Shown here in pieces: positions 6,680 to 12,917 of a stretch of 64,000 nucleotides of DNA. Below the pieces are notes generated by a model. It saw nothing but the letters and a program-made list of their open reading frames with translations, ran no database searches and was not told where the DNA came from. The stretch is from Bacteroidia bacterium (lineage in GTDB: Bacteria; Bacteroidota; Bacteroidia; 2-12-FULL-35-15). The stretch covers positions 186,001 to 250,000 of the forward strand of contig JAURXZ010000035.1 of NCBI GenBank assembly GCA_030654175.1, read 5' to 3'. The position numbers and the translations under genes are program-made. Numbering within the stretch: position 1 is the stretch's first letter; each line of letters starts with the position of its first letter.

Positions 6680-7411
6680 ATGGTCATATTATTATTATTT
6701 TTTCTTGCGCATTGGTTTTTATCACTGTTTTGTCAGACATTTTTTTTGCATCGCTATTCCTCTCATAAAATGTTCAGCATGAATGGATTTTGGGAACGTT
6801 TTTTTTACTTTTTAACCTTCATCACCCAGGGAGCATCCTTTCTAAACCCAAGAGCATACGCTATTATGCACCGTATGCATCATGCCTATAGTGATACTGA
6901 AAAGGACCCCCACTCGCCTCATTTTTTCGCAGATGTTTGGCAGATGACAATGAAAACAAAAAACATTTATTTAAATTATGTGAAATATCGTGTAGAGCCT
7001 GAAAAAGCTTTTCGTGGTAATTACCCTGAATGGAAACTTTTAGATAAAATTGGCGACATGTGGCTGGTAAGGATTTTATTCATCCTGATTTATATTCTAT
7101 TTTATTTGAATTTTGCCACCTCATACTGGATGTTCCTGCTGTTGCCTGTTCATATTTTTATGGGTCCGATCCATGGCGCAATTGTAAATTGGTGTGGACA
7201 TAAATACGGATATTCGAATTATAATAATGAAGATCATAGTAAGAATACACTGCCGATAGATATTTTTTTGATGGGTGAACTGATGCAGAACAACCATCAC
7301 AAAAGCCCTAACAGCATCAACTTTGCCAAGAAATGGTATGAATTTGACCCAACATTTCCCGTTATCTTATTTTTGAATCGAATAGGTGTAATTAAAATAC
7401 GAAAATCATGA
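6680..7411 (+). CDS. Acyl-CoA / membrane fatty-acid desaturase
   Basis: 243 residues with the three histidine boxes of membrane desaturases: HRYSSH (24-29), HRMHH (64-68) and a late NNHHKSP. Hydrophobic stretches at the N-terminus, about 37-55 and about 130-170 fit a four-helix membrane protein. The enzyme should introduce a cis double bond into a fatty acyl chain using O2 and reduced ferredoxin or cytochrome b5-like donors. Its stop codon overlaps the next start (ATGA), so it heads the six-gene lipid cluster and probably supplies the olefin that the methyltransferases act on. Confidence 0.9.
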   Translation: MVILLLFFLAHWFLSLFCQTFFLHRYSSHKMFSMNGFWERFFYFLTFITQGASFLNPRAYAIMHRMHHAYSDTEKDPHSPHFFADVWQMTMKTKNIYLNYVKYRVEPEKAFRGNYPEWKLLDKIGDMWLVRILFILIYILFYLNFATSYWMFLLLPVHIFMGPIHGAIVNWCGHKYGYSNYNNEDHSKNTLPIDIFLMGELMQNNHHKSPNSINFAKKWYEFDPTFPVILFLNRIGVIKIRKS

Positions 7412-8205
7412 ACCAGCTTTTACTTCTTCCTCTTATTGGATTTATAGCCGTTAGCATAATAATGATATTGGTATGGTTTTGGTCCATAAAAATCAACAAT
7501 GCAGGCATAGTAGATATATTCTGGGCATATAATTTCCCAGTCATTGCAATAATTTACTTTCTTCTAGGGGAAGGGTTTTATGAGCGAAAACTCATTGTAT
7601 TAATAATGGTTTGTGTTTGGGGAGCAAGACTTGGAACATATTTATTTGTACGTGTTTTAAGTCACATTAAAGAGGAAGACGGGCGATACAAACAGCTTAG
7701 GATTGAATGGGCTCCAATAGCCAATACAAAGTTTTTCTGGTTCTTTCAAATGCAGGCATTTTCAAATGTCTTTTTATCCATCCCATTTTTATTAGCCTCC
7801 ATAAATCCTAATCCGGAATTTAGTTTGATGGAAAAGATAGGCACACTTTTATGGCTCGTTTCTATATGTGGGGAAACATTGGCAGACAGACAGCTACAAG
7901 AATTTAAAAAAGATCCTGCCAATAAAGGAAAAGTATGTAATGCAGGATTATGGAATTATTCAAGACATCCGAATTACTTTTTTGAATGGATGATTTGGGT
8001 TAGCTATTTCATTTTCACCCTTTCATCCCCATACGGATGGATCTCAATTATTTGTCCTCTTTCAATACTTTTTTTATTATTTAAGGTAACCGGCATACCG
8101 CTAACAGAAGAGCAGGCCATACGTTCCAAAGGAGATGCATATAAGAAGTACCAGCTTACCACAAGCGCATTTGTTCCTTGGTTTAAAAAAAAATCAAGCA
8201 ATTAA
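7408..8205 (+). CDS. DUF1295 membrane protein (steroid 5-alpha-reductase / ICMT-like fold)
   Basis: 265 residues with about six membrane helices and the family signature GLWNYSRHPNYFFEW near residue 181, the NAD(P)H-binding C-terminal region of steroid 5-alpha-reductase-like proteins. The start overlaps the desaturase stop by 4 nt, implying translational coupling. The family fold is an NADPH-dependent reductase of activated double bonds or an integral-membrane methyltransferase; for DUF1295 the reaction is not firmly established. In this cluster a role as a reductase acting on modified acyl chains is a reasonable inference. Confidence 0.87.
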   Translation: MNQLLLLPLIGFIAVSIIMILVWFWSIKINNAGIVDIFWAYNFPVIAIIYFLLGEGFYERKLIVLIMVCVWGARLGTYLFVRVLSHIKEEDGRYKQLRIEWAPIANTKFFWFFQMQAFSNVFLSIPFLLASINPNPEFSLMEKIGTLLWLVSICGETLADRQLQEFKKDPANKGKVCNAGLWNYSRHPNYFFEWMIWVSYFIFTLSSPYGWISIICPLSILFLLFKVTGIPLTEEQAIRSKGDAYKKYQLTTSAFVPWFKKKSSN

Positions 8206-8266
8206 ATCGGTAGGCAAGTATATAATTAAAATCTTAATCGAAAAACCCTAAATCATAAATTAAGAA

Positions 8267-9295
8267 ATGTGGTATAATTCACTATTAGAGAAAAACAAGA
8301 TCCCTGATATACTCATTCGAAAAGGTATTCGCAGCTTACTTAAACAACGTCTTAACCAGGAAAACAAAGGCAATACTGAAACACAGCAGACTCATATTAT
8401 GAAATTGATAGAGGAATTAAAAAACTCTCCAATTGCCTTAAATACTGTTGATGCGAATGAACAACATTATGAGGTTCCTACAAAATTTTATCAATACTGC
8501 CTTGGTAAACACTTGAAATATAGCAGCGGCTATTGGAAAGATGGCGTTACGGATATTGATACTTCAGAAAAAGATATGCTGGAACTTACCTGCCAGAGAG
8601 CTGAATTACTAGACGGGCAAAACGTATTGGAATTGGGTTGCGGATGGGGTTCTTTATCTCTTTTTATGGCATCCCGCTTTCCAAAAAGCAGCTTTACTGT
8701 GGTTTCAAATTCCCGAACACAAAAACTATACATTGACGAACAAGCCATCAACAGAGGGATTAAAAACCTTACTGTGATCACAGCCGATATTAATGTATTT
8801 AATATTGATGGGATCTTTGATAGAATTGTTTCGGTGGAAATGTTTGAACACATGCGTAATTATCAAAAATTAATGCAAAAAGCTTCAGGATTTTTAAAGG
8901 CAGATGGAAAACTTTTTGTTCACATTTTTACTCATAAAGAATATGCCTATAAATTTGAAGTAATAGATGAAAGCGACTGGATGAGTAAATACTTTTTCAC
9001 CGGAGGAATTATGCCCAGTGATCATCTATTACTGTATTTTAATGAAAACATGAGTATTGAACAACACTGGCATGTAAATGGGATCCATTATAGTAAAACA
9101 TCCGAAGCATGGCTCAGGAATATGGATAAACATAAGAAAGAAATAATGCCGATGTTTGAAACTACCTATGGCAAAGAGCAAGCTTTAAAATGGTGGGTAT
9201 ATTGGAGGATATTTTACATGTCATGTGCCGAATTATGGCGATATAATGATGGCAACGAATGGATGATAAGCCATTACCTATTTAAGAAAAAATGA
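8267..9295 (+). CDS. SAM-dependent methyltransferase of the CFA-synthase superfamily, short form
   Basis: 342 residues lacking the N-terminal lipid-binding domain of classical CFA synthase. The SAM motif LELGCGWG is at 121-128, with IVSVEMFEHM later. The segment aligned with the bicarbonate-binding Cys of CFA/mycolate synthases reads YSSGYW (85-90), so Ser87 replaces that Cys, while a later VHIF keeps a His. This resembles the branch containing coclaurine N-methyltransferase-like enzymes. The substrate may be an acyl chain or another acceptor. It lies 61 nt after the DUF1295 gene. Confidence 0.85.
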   Translation: MWYNSLLEKNKIPDILIRKGIRSLLKQRLNQENKGNTETQQTHIMKLIEELKNSPIALNTVDANEQHYEVPTKFYQYCLGKHLKYSSGYWKDGVTDIDTSEKDMLELTCQRAELLDGQNVLELGCGWGSLSLFMASRFPKSSFTVVSNSRTQKLYIDEQAINRGIKNLTVITADINVFNIDGIFDRIVSVEMFEHMRNYQKLMQKASGFLKADGKLFVHIFTHKEYAYKFEVIDESDWMSKYFFTGGIMPSDHLLLYFNENMSIEQHWHVNGIHYSKTSEAWLRNMDKHKKEIMPMFETTYGKEQALKWWVYWRIFYMSCAELWRYNDGNEWMISHYLFKKK

Positions 9296-9430
9296 TTTTG
9301 TATTATACCTATTAAAATTATTCATACAATAACAAAACATACATATTAAAGCATTTTTGACAGTACACTATATTAATTCGGTTGTTCCAAAACCAACTAT
9401 TTAAAATTTTTTTGTCATTATAAAATCAAA

Positions 9431-10675
9431 ATGGAAAAATTAGCTATCATCGGAACAGGAGTTGCCGGAATGGGTTGTGGACATTTCCTTCACAAAAAAT
9501 ACGATATTACTTTTTTTGAACAAAACGATTATATCGGAGGACACACCAACACTGTTACTATTGATGAAGATGGGCAGCCAATATTTATTGACACAGGGTT
9601 CATGGTCTTCAACTATGCTACCTATCCGCATCTATGTAATTTATTTGAACAAATAAAAGCACCGGTAAAAAAATCAAGTATGTCGTTTAGCGTTCAACAT
9701 CTTGAAAGCGGTCTGGAATACTGTGGTTCAGGTTTGGATGGTTTATTTGCTCAACGAAAAAATATTTTTAATGTACGATACATAAAAATGTTAATGGAAA
9801 TAACCCGTTTCAACAGGGAGAGTATTAAAATTTTAGAAAACCCTAAATACGCGGACTATACATTAGGCCAATTCATCAAGGAATTTAATTACAGTGACGA
9901 TATGCTTTGGAAATATTTAGTTCCTATGGGATCAGCTGTATGGTCTACTCCAATGGAGCTAATGCTTGACTTTTCAGCGATATCATTAATTAAGTTTTTT
10001 CAAAACCATGGGTTCTTAGGCATGAATACTCAGCACCAATGGTATACACTGCATAATGGAAGCCAGGCCTACCGGGAATTATTAATAAAACCTTTTAAGG
10101 ATAAAATAAAAACGAACAACGCGGTTTTAAAAGTAGTTCGGAACGATAACAAGGCTGTTATACATTCTTCTGATGGTGCAATCCAGGAGTTCGATAAAGT
10201 CATTTTCGCATCCCATGCCGATCAGACTTTACGTATGATAGAGCAACCTACTGCAAACGAAAAACGTTTATTGTCTTCTTTTAAATATCAAACAAACAGT
10301 TCTACAATACATACTGATGAATCAATAATGCCTAAGAACAAAAAGGTATGGAGCAGTTGGAATTACAGGATCGAAAATAAAAACGGAATACAAATTCCAA
10401 CTACTATATACTGGATGAATAGTTTACAGCAAGTTTCAAAAAATAAAAATTACTTTGTATCTATAAACGCACTGCCTGATAGTATTGATAAAAGTAAAAT
10501 TTTGAAAGTCATTGACTATGAGCATCCGCTATTTGATATTGCAACAAAACAAGCACAAACAGAATTGCATAAATTAAACGCGAAAGGTCCTCTTTATTTT
10601 TGTGGAAGCTATTTCAAATATGGTTTTCATGAAGATGCTTTTGCTTCAGCAGTTGAACTTTGCACAGCTTTATAA
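9431..10675 (+). CDS. FAD-dependent oxidoreductase (amine-oxidase fold) of the CFA cluster
   Basis: 414 residues. The N-terminal dinucleotide-binding motif is GTGVAGMGCG (8-17), followed by the acidic strand end and GG of the FAD motif (FFEQNDYIGGHTNT). The C-terminus has the family closing motif (CGSYFKYGFHEDAF). Close homologues sit next to DUF1365 and CFA synthase in many bacteria, and plant cyclopropane synthases carry a related FAD domain fused upstream of the CFA domain. A role as acyl-chain desaturase or reductase is likely, but the direction of the redox reaction is not known here. Preceded by 135 nt of AT-rich spacer. Confidence 0.88.
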   Translation: MEKLAIIGTGVAGMGCGHFLHKKYDITFFEQNDYIGGHTNTVTIDEDGQPIFIDTGFMVFNYATYPHLCNLFEQIKAPVKKSSMSFSVQHLESGLEYCGSGLDGLFAQRKNIFNVRYIKMLMEITRFNRESIKILENPKYADYTLGQFIKEFNYSDDMLWKYLVPMGSAVWSTPMELMLDFSAISLIKFFQNHGFLGMNTQHQWYTLHNGSQAYRELLIKPFKDKIKTNNAVLKVVRNDNKAVIHSSDGAIQEFDKVIFASHADQTLRMIEQPTANEKRLLSSFKYQTNSSTIHTDESIMPKNKKVWSSWNYRIENKNGIQIPTTIYWMNSLQQVSKNKNYFVSINALPDSIDKSKILKVIDYEHPLFDIATKQAQTELHKLNAKGPLYFCGSYFKYGFHEDAFASAVELCTAL

Positions 10676-10732
10676 ATATTGATGTATAAATCAGTATAAT
10701 TGTAAAAATGGCAAAAGTTAGAGAATGATTTT

Positions 10733-10740
10733 TAACTTTG
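10733..10740 (+). promoter_or_regulatory. Candidate -7 box TAACTTTG before the DUF1365 gene
   Basis: An exact match to TAnnTTTG, 48 nt upstream of the ATG at 10789, inside a 113-nt gap. No clear -33 element is visible. It suggests the DUF1365-CFA pair could have its own promoter. Confidence 0.35.
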
Positions 10741-10788
10741 GTATAAATGTATTTTATATATAAAATGTTCTAATTTCCATTTTAAATT

Positions 10789-11583
10789 ATGCTGAACTCT
10801 TGCCTTTATAAGTGTACCGTAATGCATAATCGTTTGGAACCTAAACAACACAGGTTCCATTACAATATATTTATGTTCTACATCGACCTGGATGAAATTG
10901 ACCAACTCAGCCAGAAGCTATGGATGCTGAGCCGGAACAAATTTAATTTTTTCAGTTTTAAGGATAGTGAACATTTGCAATTGCCACGCGAAAATCCTGA
11001 TAAATCAAAAAACGTTAAACAGCACATTACTGATTATCTTCAGCAAAATGGTATTACCATTGGAAATGGAAAAATCAAGTTACTTACTAACTTGAATGTA
11101 TTAGGCTATAATTTTAATCCGGTTTCTTTTTATTATTGTTTTGATGCTAATAACTCACCACTATGCGTAGTTGCTGAAATTGGAAATACATTTGGTGAAA
11201 TTAAACCTTTCTTTTTGGGTGAAAATAATTTGACTGCAAACAAATTTCATCTGAATACAACTAAATACTTTTACGTTTCTCCCTTCATCGATCATGATAC
11301 TAATTTTGATTTTAATTTGGAGATCCCTGATCATAAATTGAATATCAGGATTGATGATTATAAGAACGAAAAACGTTTTTTCATAAGCACATTAACGGGA
11401 GTACGTGAGCCTGTAAGCAATTTTAATTTAATAAAGTATAGCATTCGTTTTCCATTTATTACGTTAAAAATTATAACTTTGATACATTGGAATGCTATAA
11501 AACTCTGGCTAAAAAAAATACCTTATCGCAAAAAATCAGCCGATCAGGAATTGCAGCGGGATGCTTATAGAAAGTATAATTAG
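10789..11583 (+). CDS. DUF1365 domain protein
   Basis: 264 residues spanning the whole DUF1365 domain: N-terminal LYKCTVMHNRLEPKQHRFHY, then LLTNLNVLGYNFNPVSFYYC (about 99-118), which is the most conserved core of the family, and a C-terminal hydrophobic/basic helix near 210-240. The family is almost always encoded between an FAD oxidoreductase and a CFA-type methyltransferase, exactly as here. No biochemical role is established to my knowledge; it may bind or present lipid substrate at the membrane. Confidence 0.88.
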   Translation: MLNSCLYKCTVMHNRLEPKQHRFHYNIFMFYIDLDEIDQLSQKLWMLSRNKFNFFSFKDSEHLQLPRENPDKSKNVKQHITDYLQQNGITIGNGKIKLLTNLNVLGYNFNPVSFYYCFDANNSPLCVVAEIGNTFGEIKPFFLGENNLTANKFHLNTTKYFYVSPFIDHDTNFDFNLEIPDHKLNIRIDDYKNEKRFFISTLTGVREPVSNFNLIKYSIRFPFITLKIITLIHWNAIKLWLKKIPYRKKSADQELQRDAYRKYN

Positions 11584-11678
11584 GATTAAAAAAGGAGAGA
11601 ATAAAAAAAGTGTTTTTTCAATTGAAGATTTCTTAAATTAAATTTAATTCGTATTTCATACTAGTATTTCCAGGGAAT

Positions 11679-12917
11679 ATGCCACAAACTGCAACCTCAA
11701 CAATCAAACGCAATTTTTATGAGAAAGTAATTATTGAATTGCTTTCAAAAATGAATCAGGGAACCCTAAACCTAATTTTGCCTACCGGAGAGTTAGTGAA
11801 GATCGGTAATGGGCTCAACGAAATTGTTGCAACTATTGAAGTGAAAAATAATTATTTTTTCAAACGCTGTGTTTTATATGGTGATATCGGATTTGGCGAA
11901 GCGTATGTAGATGGAGACTGGGAAACGGATAATATTTCCAATGTAATTAAATGGATATTATTAAATGTTGATAATGCACCAACAGCATCCGGAAGCCAGG
12001 CGCAAGCCTTTGCACTAAACATATTAAAGTTTTTCAATACAATTTATCACAAAAAAAGGGCTAACAGTATAAATGGCTCCAGAAAAAACATTTCTGAACA
12101 TTATGATCTGGACAATAATTTCTTTGGCCTCTTCCTCGACCCTACCATGACCTATTCCTGCGCTTATTTTAAAAAAGAGGGAATGAGTTTGCAGGAAGCA
12201 CAAATAGAAAAATACGAAAGACTTTGTGAGCAATTGAAATTAAAACCAACCGACCATGTTCTTGAAATAGGAAGCGGATGGGGTCAGAATGCGATTCATA
12301 TAGCAAGGCAATATGGCTGCAAAGTAACAACAGTAACTATTTCGGAAGAGCAATATAAACTTACTAAAGAACGGGTAGAAAAAGAAAAACTCACCGATAA
12401 AATAAATATTTTACTAAAAGATTATCGCCTTATTGAAGGTAAATTCGATAAAATTGTTTCCATTGAAATGTTGGAAGCGGTAGGCCATAAATTTTTGGAA
12501 GTTTATTTTAAAAAATGTAATGACTTACTTAAGAAGGACGGTATTCTTGCTATCCAGGTAATTACCTGCCCGGATTCCAGGTACGAAAGTTTACGAAACG
12601 GAGTAGATTGGATTCAAAAGCATATTTTCCCCGGCTCTTTGTTACCGTCTGTGAGTACTATTAATAAAGCAATTAATAACACTTCAGATATGACCTTGGT
12701 TGATCTCAAAGATATGGGATTGCATTATGCACGCACTTTATCGGCATGGCAAAAAGAATTTAATCAGCAATTATCTGAAGTTAAAAAAATGGGCTTTGAT
12801 GAGCGTTTTATACGCAAATGGAACTATTATTTCAGCTATTGCGAAGCTGCATTTGAAATGCGTAACATCCATGTAATGCAAATGGTTTATGCCCGACCGA
12901 ACAATACAAATCGTTAA
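11679..12917 (+). CDS. Cyclopropane-fatty-acyl-phospholipid synthase family protein, full length
   Basis: 412 residues: an N-terminal lipid-binding domain (about 20-115) and a C-terminal SAM methyltransferase domain. Visible motifs are the active-site segment TYSCAYF (158-164, Cys161), the SAM motif EIGSGWG (196-202), SIEMLEAVGH (261-270), HIFPGSLLPS (315-324) and YYFSYCEAAF near the C-terminus. The position of the mycobacterial HTI histidine is Gln (AIQVIT), as in the plant-type subfamily. It should add a methylene or methyl group from SAM across the double bond of a membrane phospholipid acyl chain. It ends the lipid cluster, 39 nt from the convergent CotH gene. Confidence 0.9.
   Translation: MPQTATSTIKRNFYEKVIIELLSKMNQGTLNLILPTGELVKIGNGLNEIVATIEVKNNYFFKRCVLYGDIGFGEAYVDGDWETDNISNVIKWILLNVDNAPTASGSQAQAFALNILKFFNTIYHKKRANSINGSRKNISEHYDLDNNFFGLFLDPTMTYSCAYFKKEGMSLQEAQIEKYERLCEQLKLKPTDHVLEIGSGWGQNAIHIARQYGCKVTTVTISEEQYKLTKERVEKEKLTDKINILLKDYRLIEGKFDKIVSIEMLEAVGHKFLEVYFKKCNDLLKKDGILAIQVITCPDSRYESLRNGVDWIQKHIFPGSLLPSVSTINKAINNTSDMTLVDLKDMGLHYARTLSAWQKEFNQQLSEVKKMGFDERFIRKWNYYFSYCEAAFEMRNIHVMQMVYARPNNTNR

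Follow-up and report, generated by a model that had tools for sequence, protein, structure and literature searches.

The six-gene locus

In the window, i.e. the whole stretch of 64,000 nucleotides of Bacteroidia DNA analysed here, the segment 6680-12917 carries six intact open reading frames on one strand, the coordinates of which were confirmed by an ORF check (Table 1). The first two genes share the sequence ATGA (7408-7411), and the remaining intergenic gaps measure, in order, 61, 135, 113 and 95 bp. An earlier note, made from the sequence alone, had described this same-strand arrangement with its short gaps and overlap as an operon for the C1 modification of lipids; both the ORFs and the Pfam matches agree with the described layout, and the six protein families named there were recovered by Pfam. 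Within the cluster, no terminator-like sites were found on the plus strand by a scan that is weak for this phylum, and the number of sites in a promoter scan was no higher than in shuffled sequences.

Table 1 Genes of the cluster, with their positions in the window, protein lengths and Pfam matches.
Gene product	Positions	Strand	Length	Pfam match
FA_desaturase	6680-7411	+	243 aa	PF00487, E 5e-15
DUF1295	7408-8205	+	265 aa	PF06966, E 2e-69
CMAS, FufM-like methyltransferase	8267-9295	+	342 aa	PF02353, E 2e-36
Amino_oxidase, UfaD-like FAD oxidoreductase	9431-10675	+	414 aa	PF01593, E 1e-17
DUF1365, UfaO-like	10789-11583	+	264 aa	PF07103, E 1e-74
CMAS, UfaM-like methyltransferase	11679-12917	+	412 aa	PF02353, E 1e-90

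The cluster is adjoined by a CotH gene whose product has a type IX secretion domain, in keeping with a Bacteroidota host. Beside the UfaM-type gene, 14 sampled Bacteroidia loci (L054, L057, L059, L061, L062, L063, L072, L074, L078, L084, L085, L089 and two more) have a convergently oriented gene for an MFS_2 transporter; in the window, this place is taken by the CotH/T9SS gene. Nine loci contain, inside the cluster, a gene for a BD-FAE type alpha/beta hydrolase (possibly a lipid esterase) that is absent from the window; it lies between the FufM-like and UfaD genes in L055 (8132-9265), L058 (4585-5724), L059, L060, L063, L072, L076 and L084, and between the DUF1295 and FufM-like genes in L083. 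A small DUF1475 membrane protein is encoded next to DUF1295 or the desaturase in L077, L081, L083 and L084.

A probable UfaD-UfaO-UfaM trio

Furan fatty acids (FuFA) are antioxidant membrane lipids, the dimethyl form of which is built by four enzymes in purple bacteria. Monomethyl FuFA can be made with just the genes ufaM, ufaD and ufaO, and the same is true of RPA2569-2571 of R. palustris (Lemke 2020, PMC7380195): UfaM methylates vaccenate, the FAD-type enzyme UfaD then desaturates the methylated chain, and the DUF1365 protein UfaO forms the furan with oxygen from O2 (PMC7380195). FufM (RPA0924) yields dimethyl FuFA in vivo and in vitro (Lemke 2020, PMC7380195). Besides ufaM, the CFA-like genes of R. 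palustris are RPA3082, with 38% identity to UfaM, and RPA0924, the product of which is 26% identical to UfaM of R. sphaeroides (PMC7380195).

The last three genes of the cluster match the first three of these enzymes. The window's UfaD-type protein is 34% identical to R. palustris UfaD over the full length (E 4e-94), the DUF1365 protein, to which the earlier note had given no role, is 31% identical to UfaO (E 2e-50) and thus matches the furan former, and the 412-aa protein is 36% identical to UfaM. The order UfaD-UfaO-UfaM is that of R. palustris XCP (loci L167 and L168); the Rhodopseudomonas contigs were located via an LH2 alpha peptide, which matches PDB 7zdi_A exactly, and the genomes were then searched. 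In a maximum-likelihood tree of 78 rows, the 412-aa protein fell into one group with UfaM (support 100/99), separate from E. coli CFA synthase and RPA3082-like plain CFA. Several branches of this tree are long, but the residue signatures agree: the 412-aa protein carries the UfaM-type A240 and Q266 in positions where CFA synthases have H240 and H266. For the DUF1365 protein, no solved relative was found, and a single-sequence structure prediction gave a mean pLDDT of 35.

By analogy with these enzymes, the 412-aa UfaM-type enzyme would methylate the acyl double bond and shift it, the UfaD-type FAD enzyme would add a second, conjugated double bond, and the UfaO-type DUF1365 protein would insert an O2-derived oxygen, closing the furan ring. 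The earlier note had let the FAD and DUF1295 proteins oxidise or reduce the product; the FAD protein can now be specified as a UfaD-like desaturase, and the roles had otherwise been drawn too loosely.

It is unlikely that the trio makes cyclopropane or methyl-branched chains instead, with the second methyltransferase adding C1 elsewhere. Related plant FAD-CFA fusion enzymes make cyclopropanes, and the plant enzymes probably share the A240/Q266-type pattern, so that this pattern says more about the clade than about the chemistry. UfaM is also a member of the CFA family, and the plant fusion AT3G23510 is 34% identical to UfaM and 38% to UfaD (plant lipid-droplet paper). The 412-aa protein, however, matches UfaM, lies outside the CFA clade and lacks the H240 and H266 kept by both E. 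coli CFA and the plain CFA of R. palustris, and 25 of the 27 Bacteroidia genomes with a FufM-like gene also have DUF1365, a family of which the characterised members are all furan formers. Furthermore, the 342-aa and 412-aa genes are the only strong CMAS genes in the window's genome, which leaves no separate CFA synthase as a competing candidate for the assignment. Among the branched, cyclopropane or furan chains named in the earlier note, clades, residues and synteny of the UfaM and FufM types thus favour the furan over the other two.

Linkage of the trio to the three upstream genes

Sixteen sampled Bacteroidia loci besides the window repeat the six-gene order and strand; 11 of them belong to the window's genus and five to four other genera, and the arrangement is therefore not due to chance. 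Among 198 Bacteroidia genomes, 25 contained both DUF1365 and a FufM-like gene, two a FufM-like gene only and 171 neither. All 25 genomes with DUF1365 thus also have a FufM-like gene (p about 1e-29, uncorrected for relatedness); the positive genomes belong to 14 genera and are not independent events. In several Bacteroidia (e.g. G138, G106 and G134), desaturase-DUF1295-FufM and UfaD-UfaO-UfaM are found on different contigs, which suggests that two modules are joined in the window's cluster.

This separation, together with the unusual third histidine box (QNNHH) of the desaturase, would also fit an independent action of the modules, the first making a distinct new lipid and the trio a monomethyl FuFA. 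The genome G065 (99% complete) is a case in point, as it carries the desaturase-DUF1295-FufM module (G065:C70:68368-70910) and no DUF1365 match was found in it, which the furan model leaves unexplained. We nevertheless regard such independence as improbable, because the modules co-occur in 25 of the 27 genomes and are joined in the window and the 16 other loci, and because FufM of R. palustris acts on the product of UfaM, UfaD and UfaO and left 18:1 unmethylated in the assay.

The 342-aa methyltransferase is 43% identical to a protein of R. palustris XCP which is probably the FufM of this species, and only about 26% identical to UfaM and CFA. The XCP protein is taken as FufM since it is the sole member of the clade in its genome and since its identities fit, being 27% to UfaM and 35% to coclaurine N-methyltransferase. 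In the tree, the 342-aa protein clusters with probable FufM and coclaurine N-methyltransferase, distinct from UfaM and CFA. It shares Y137, H240, H266, F268 and Y317 (E. coli CFA numbering) with FufM, and would methylate the other ring carbon, thereby adding the second methyl group. It is very improbable that the enzyme is instead an alkaloid-type amine N-methyltransferase with a lipid head group as its substrate: its closest solved relatives are coclaurine and pavine N-methyltransferases (42% identity to the former, 6gkv, over a 293-residue stretch), but the best PDB match is the same for probable R. palustris FufM, positions 266, 268 and 317 are H, F and Y in the window's enzyme and FufM and E, I and F in coclaurine N-methyltransferase, and an identity of 38% has been reported between FufM and LIME1, a lipid-droplet protein of plants (plant lipid-droplet paper).

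The DUF1295 protein is an integral membrane protein of the steroid reductase/isoprenylcysteine methyltransferase superfamily and also matches Steroid_dh (E 8e-12). Its chemistry is ambiguous, as its profile weakly matches structures of both isoprenylcysteine methyltransferase (ICMT 4a2n) and sterol reductase (4quv), as well as AtTam46 (8xku). It is 37% identical to the DUF1295 protein encoded upstream of the probable FufM gene of R. palustris XCP. According to the search coordinates, in all seven Rhodopseudomonas genomes with a FufM-like gene the gene immediately upstream of it is DUF1295 (five of these loci were re-annotated), and the same holds for Acinetobacter, Burkholderia, Ensifer and Rhizobium. 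Among the 198 Bacteroidia genomes, the close DUF1295 subfamily is present in 25 of the 27 with a FufM-like gene. The genome search of R. rhenobacensis and Roseiarcus, in which DUF1365 is present and a FufM-like gene absent, gave no close DUF1295 match. In Legionella, DUF1295 lies beside UfaD-UfaO-UfaM with no local FufM, and in Phyllobacterium beside UfaD-UfaO. FufM was active in R. sphaeroides and in vitro without added DUF1295 (PMC7380195), so the protein is not strictly required for the second methylation. Linked chiefly to the FufM step, DUF1295 may serve as an anchor or hand over the substrate, or it may catalyse one more reduction or methylation. RPA0923, numbered next to fufM, is probably the DUF1295 gene of R. 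palustris, judging from the synteny in strain XCP; its deletion is listed and the main text reports no result (Lemke 2020, PMC7380195). In Chlamydomonas, the singlet-oxygen genes that depend on SAK1 include CFA1, CFA2, one DUF1365 and one DUF1295 gene (PMC4067076), and the link to DUF1295 may thus reach algae. No relatives of DUF1365 or DUF1295 were found on viral contigs, and titles and abstracts on DUF1295 together with CFA-type synthases contained nothing that looked relevant.

The desaturase is of the membrane fatty acid type and has the histidine boxes HRYSSH, HRMHH and QNNHH. It matches the DesA-family NCBIfam model (2e-34, below the cut-off of the model) and, weakly, the acyl-CoA desaturase SCD1 (4ymk; E 4e-4). 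The third box is QNNHH, not HxxHH, in eight of eight aligned Bacteroidia orthologues, and HNNHH in Acinetobacter. Third boxes of the QNNHH type resemble those of front-end desaturases. The close subfamily is present in 24 of the 27 Bacteroidia genomes with a FufM-like gene, and four further FA_desaturase genes are present in the window's genome. We infer that the enzyme makes or tops up a cis-monoene acyl chain, in which the position of the double bond would fix the position of the ring; from a delta-9 16:1 chain, for example, one would expect an acid arm of 7 carbons and a pentyl tail. As a tentative extension, which we hold to be less probable than its negation, DUF1295 may be an unrecognised working part of dimethyl FuFA metabolism, kept with FufM in lineages as far apart as Bacteroidota and purple bacteria, while the QNNHH desaturase may make a dedicated precursor placing the furan ring at an unseen position.

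Predicted pathway and comparison with known systems

Taken together, these results suggest, with a probability of roughly 0.76, that the cluster makes methylated, most likely dimethylated, FuFA on membrane lipids. Orthology, gene order and co-occurrence were observed here, and the activity in Bacteroidota is predicted from them; the individual reactions were shown by experiment solely for the purple-bacterial homologues (PMC7380195). Given the modest identities of the UfaD and UfaO proteins (34% and 31%), a changed specificity is possible. The cluster is best explained as a new instance of a known pathway, in unusually complete form, and not as the source of a new product; the two divergent methyltransferases, which the earlier note thought might define one, match the known UfaM/FufM pair. 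Two features appear to be new, namely the occurrence in Bacteroidota and the association of the FufM step with DUF1295 and a desaturase carrying a QNNHH box; titles and abstracts on FuFA in Bacteroidetes or Flavobacteria included none that looked relevant. The predicted complete dimethylating FuFA pathway would thereby be extended to Bacteroidota, with all known enzymes in one cluster, and DUF1295, a family without assigned function, stands out as being conserved alongside the second methylation.

With regard to regulation, no TIGR02451 (ChrR) match was found in the window's genome, and the known singlet-oxygen regulation is therefore absent or different here. The sigmaE-ChrR control of R. sphaeroides is a regulatory habit and not needed for the chemistry. 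In Burkholderia, a sigma/anti-sigma pair is followed by DUF1295-methyltransferase-lipocalin-FAD-DUF1365-CFA, and in Ensifer and Rhizobium the DUF1295-methyltransferase pair lies near ChrR. FuFA-type clusters were also seen on plasmids of Acinetobacter, Burkholderia, Cupriavidus and Ensifer (L046, L047, L048 and L049), with lipocalin genes nearby and, in some, photolyase or chalcone-isomerase family genes.

Among the closest known systems is the monomethyl FuFA pathway of Rhodobacter sphaeroides (RSP2144, RSP1091 and RSP1090) and Rhodopseudomonas palustris (RPA2569-2571), which consists of the same three orthologous enzyme types; the window's trio differs from it in its Bacteroidota host, in its sequence (31-36% identity) and in being joined to three further genes. 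E. coli CFA synthase (6bqc) is of the same CMAS family and 38% identical to the 412-aa protein, but lacks the UfaM-type A240/Q266 and lies outside the UfaM clade. The 9M5-FuFA methylase FufM (RPA0924 of R. palustris; LIME1/AtFUFM1 of plants) belongs to the same clade as the 342-aa enzyme, which is 43% identical to the XCP protein. The R. palustris FufM gene has, like the window's 342-aa gene, a DUF1295 gene directly upstream, yet it is found at a separate locus, whereas the window's gene is clustered with the ufa trio. The six-gene combination is not unique to the window either, as the Acinetobacter plasmid NZ_CP090068 carries homologues of all six, grouped on one strand. There, the blocks are ordered differently (desaturase-UfaD-UfaO-UfaM-DUF1295-FufM), the acyl-CoA desaturase is a distant protein of 328 aa (25-29%) with an HNNHH box, and the cluster is adjoined, unlike that of the window, by a two-component regulator.
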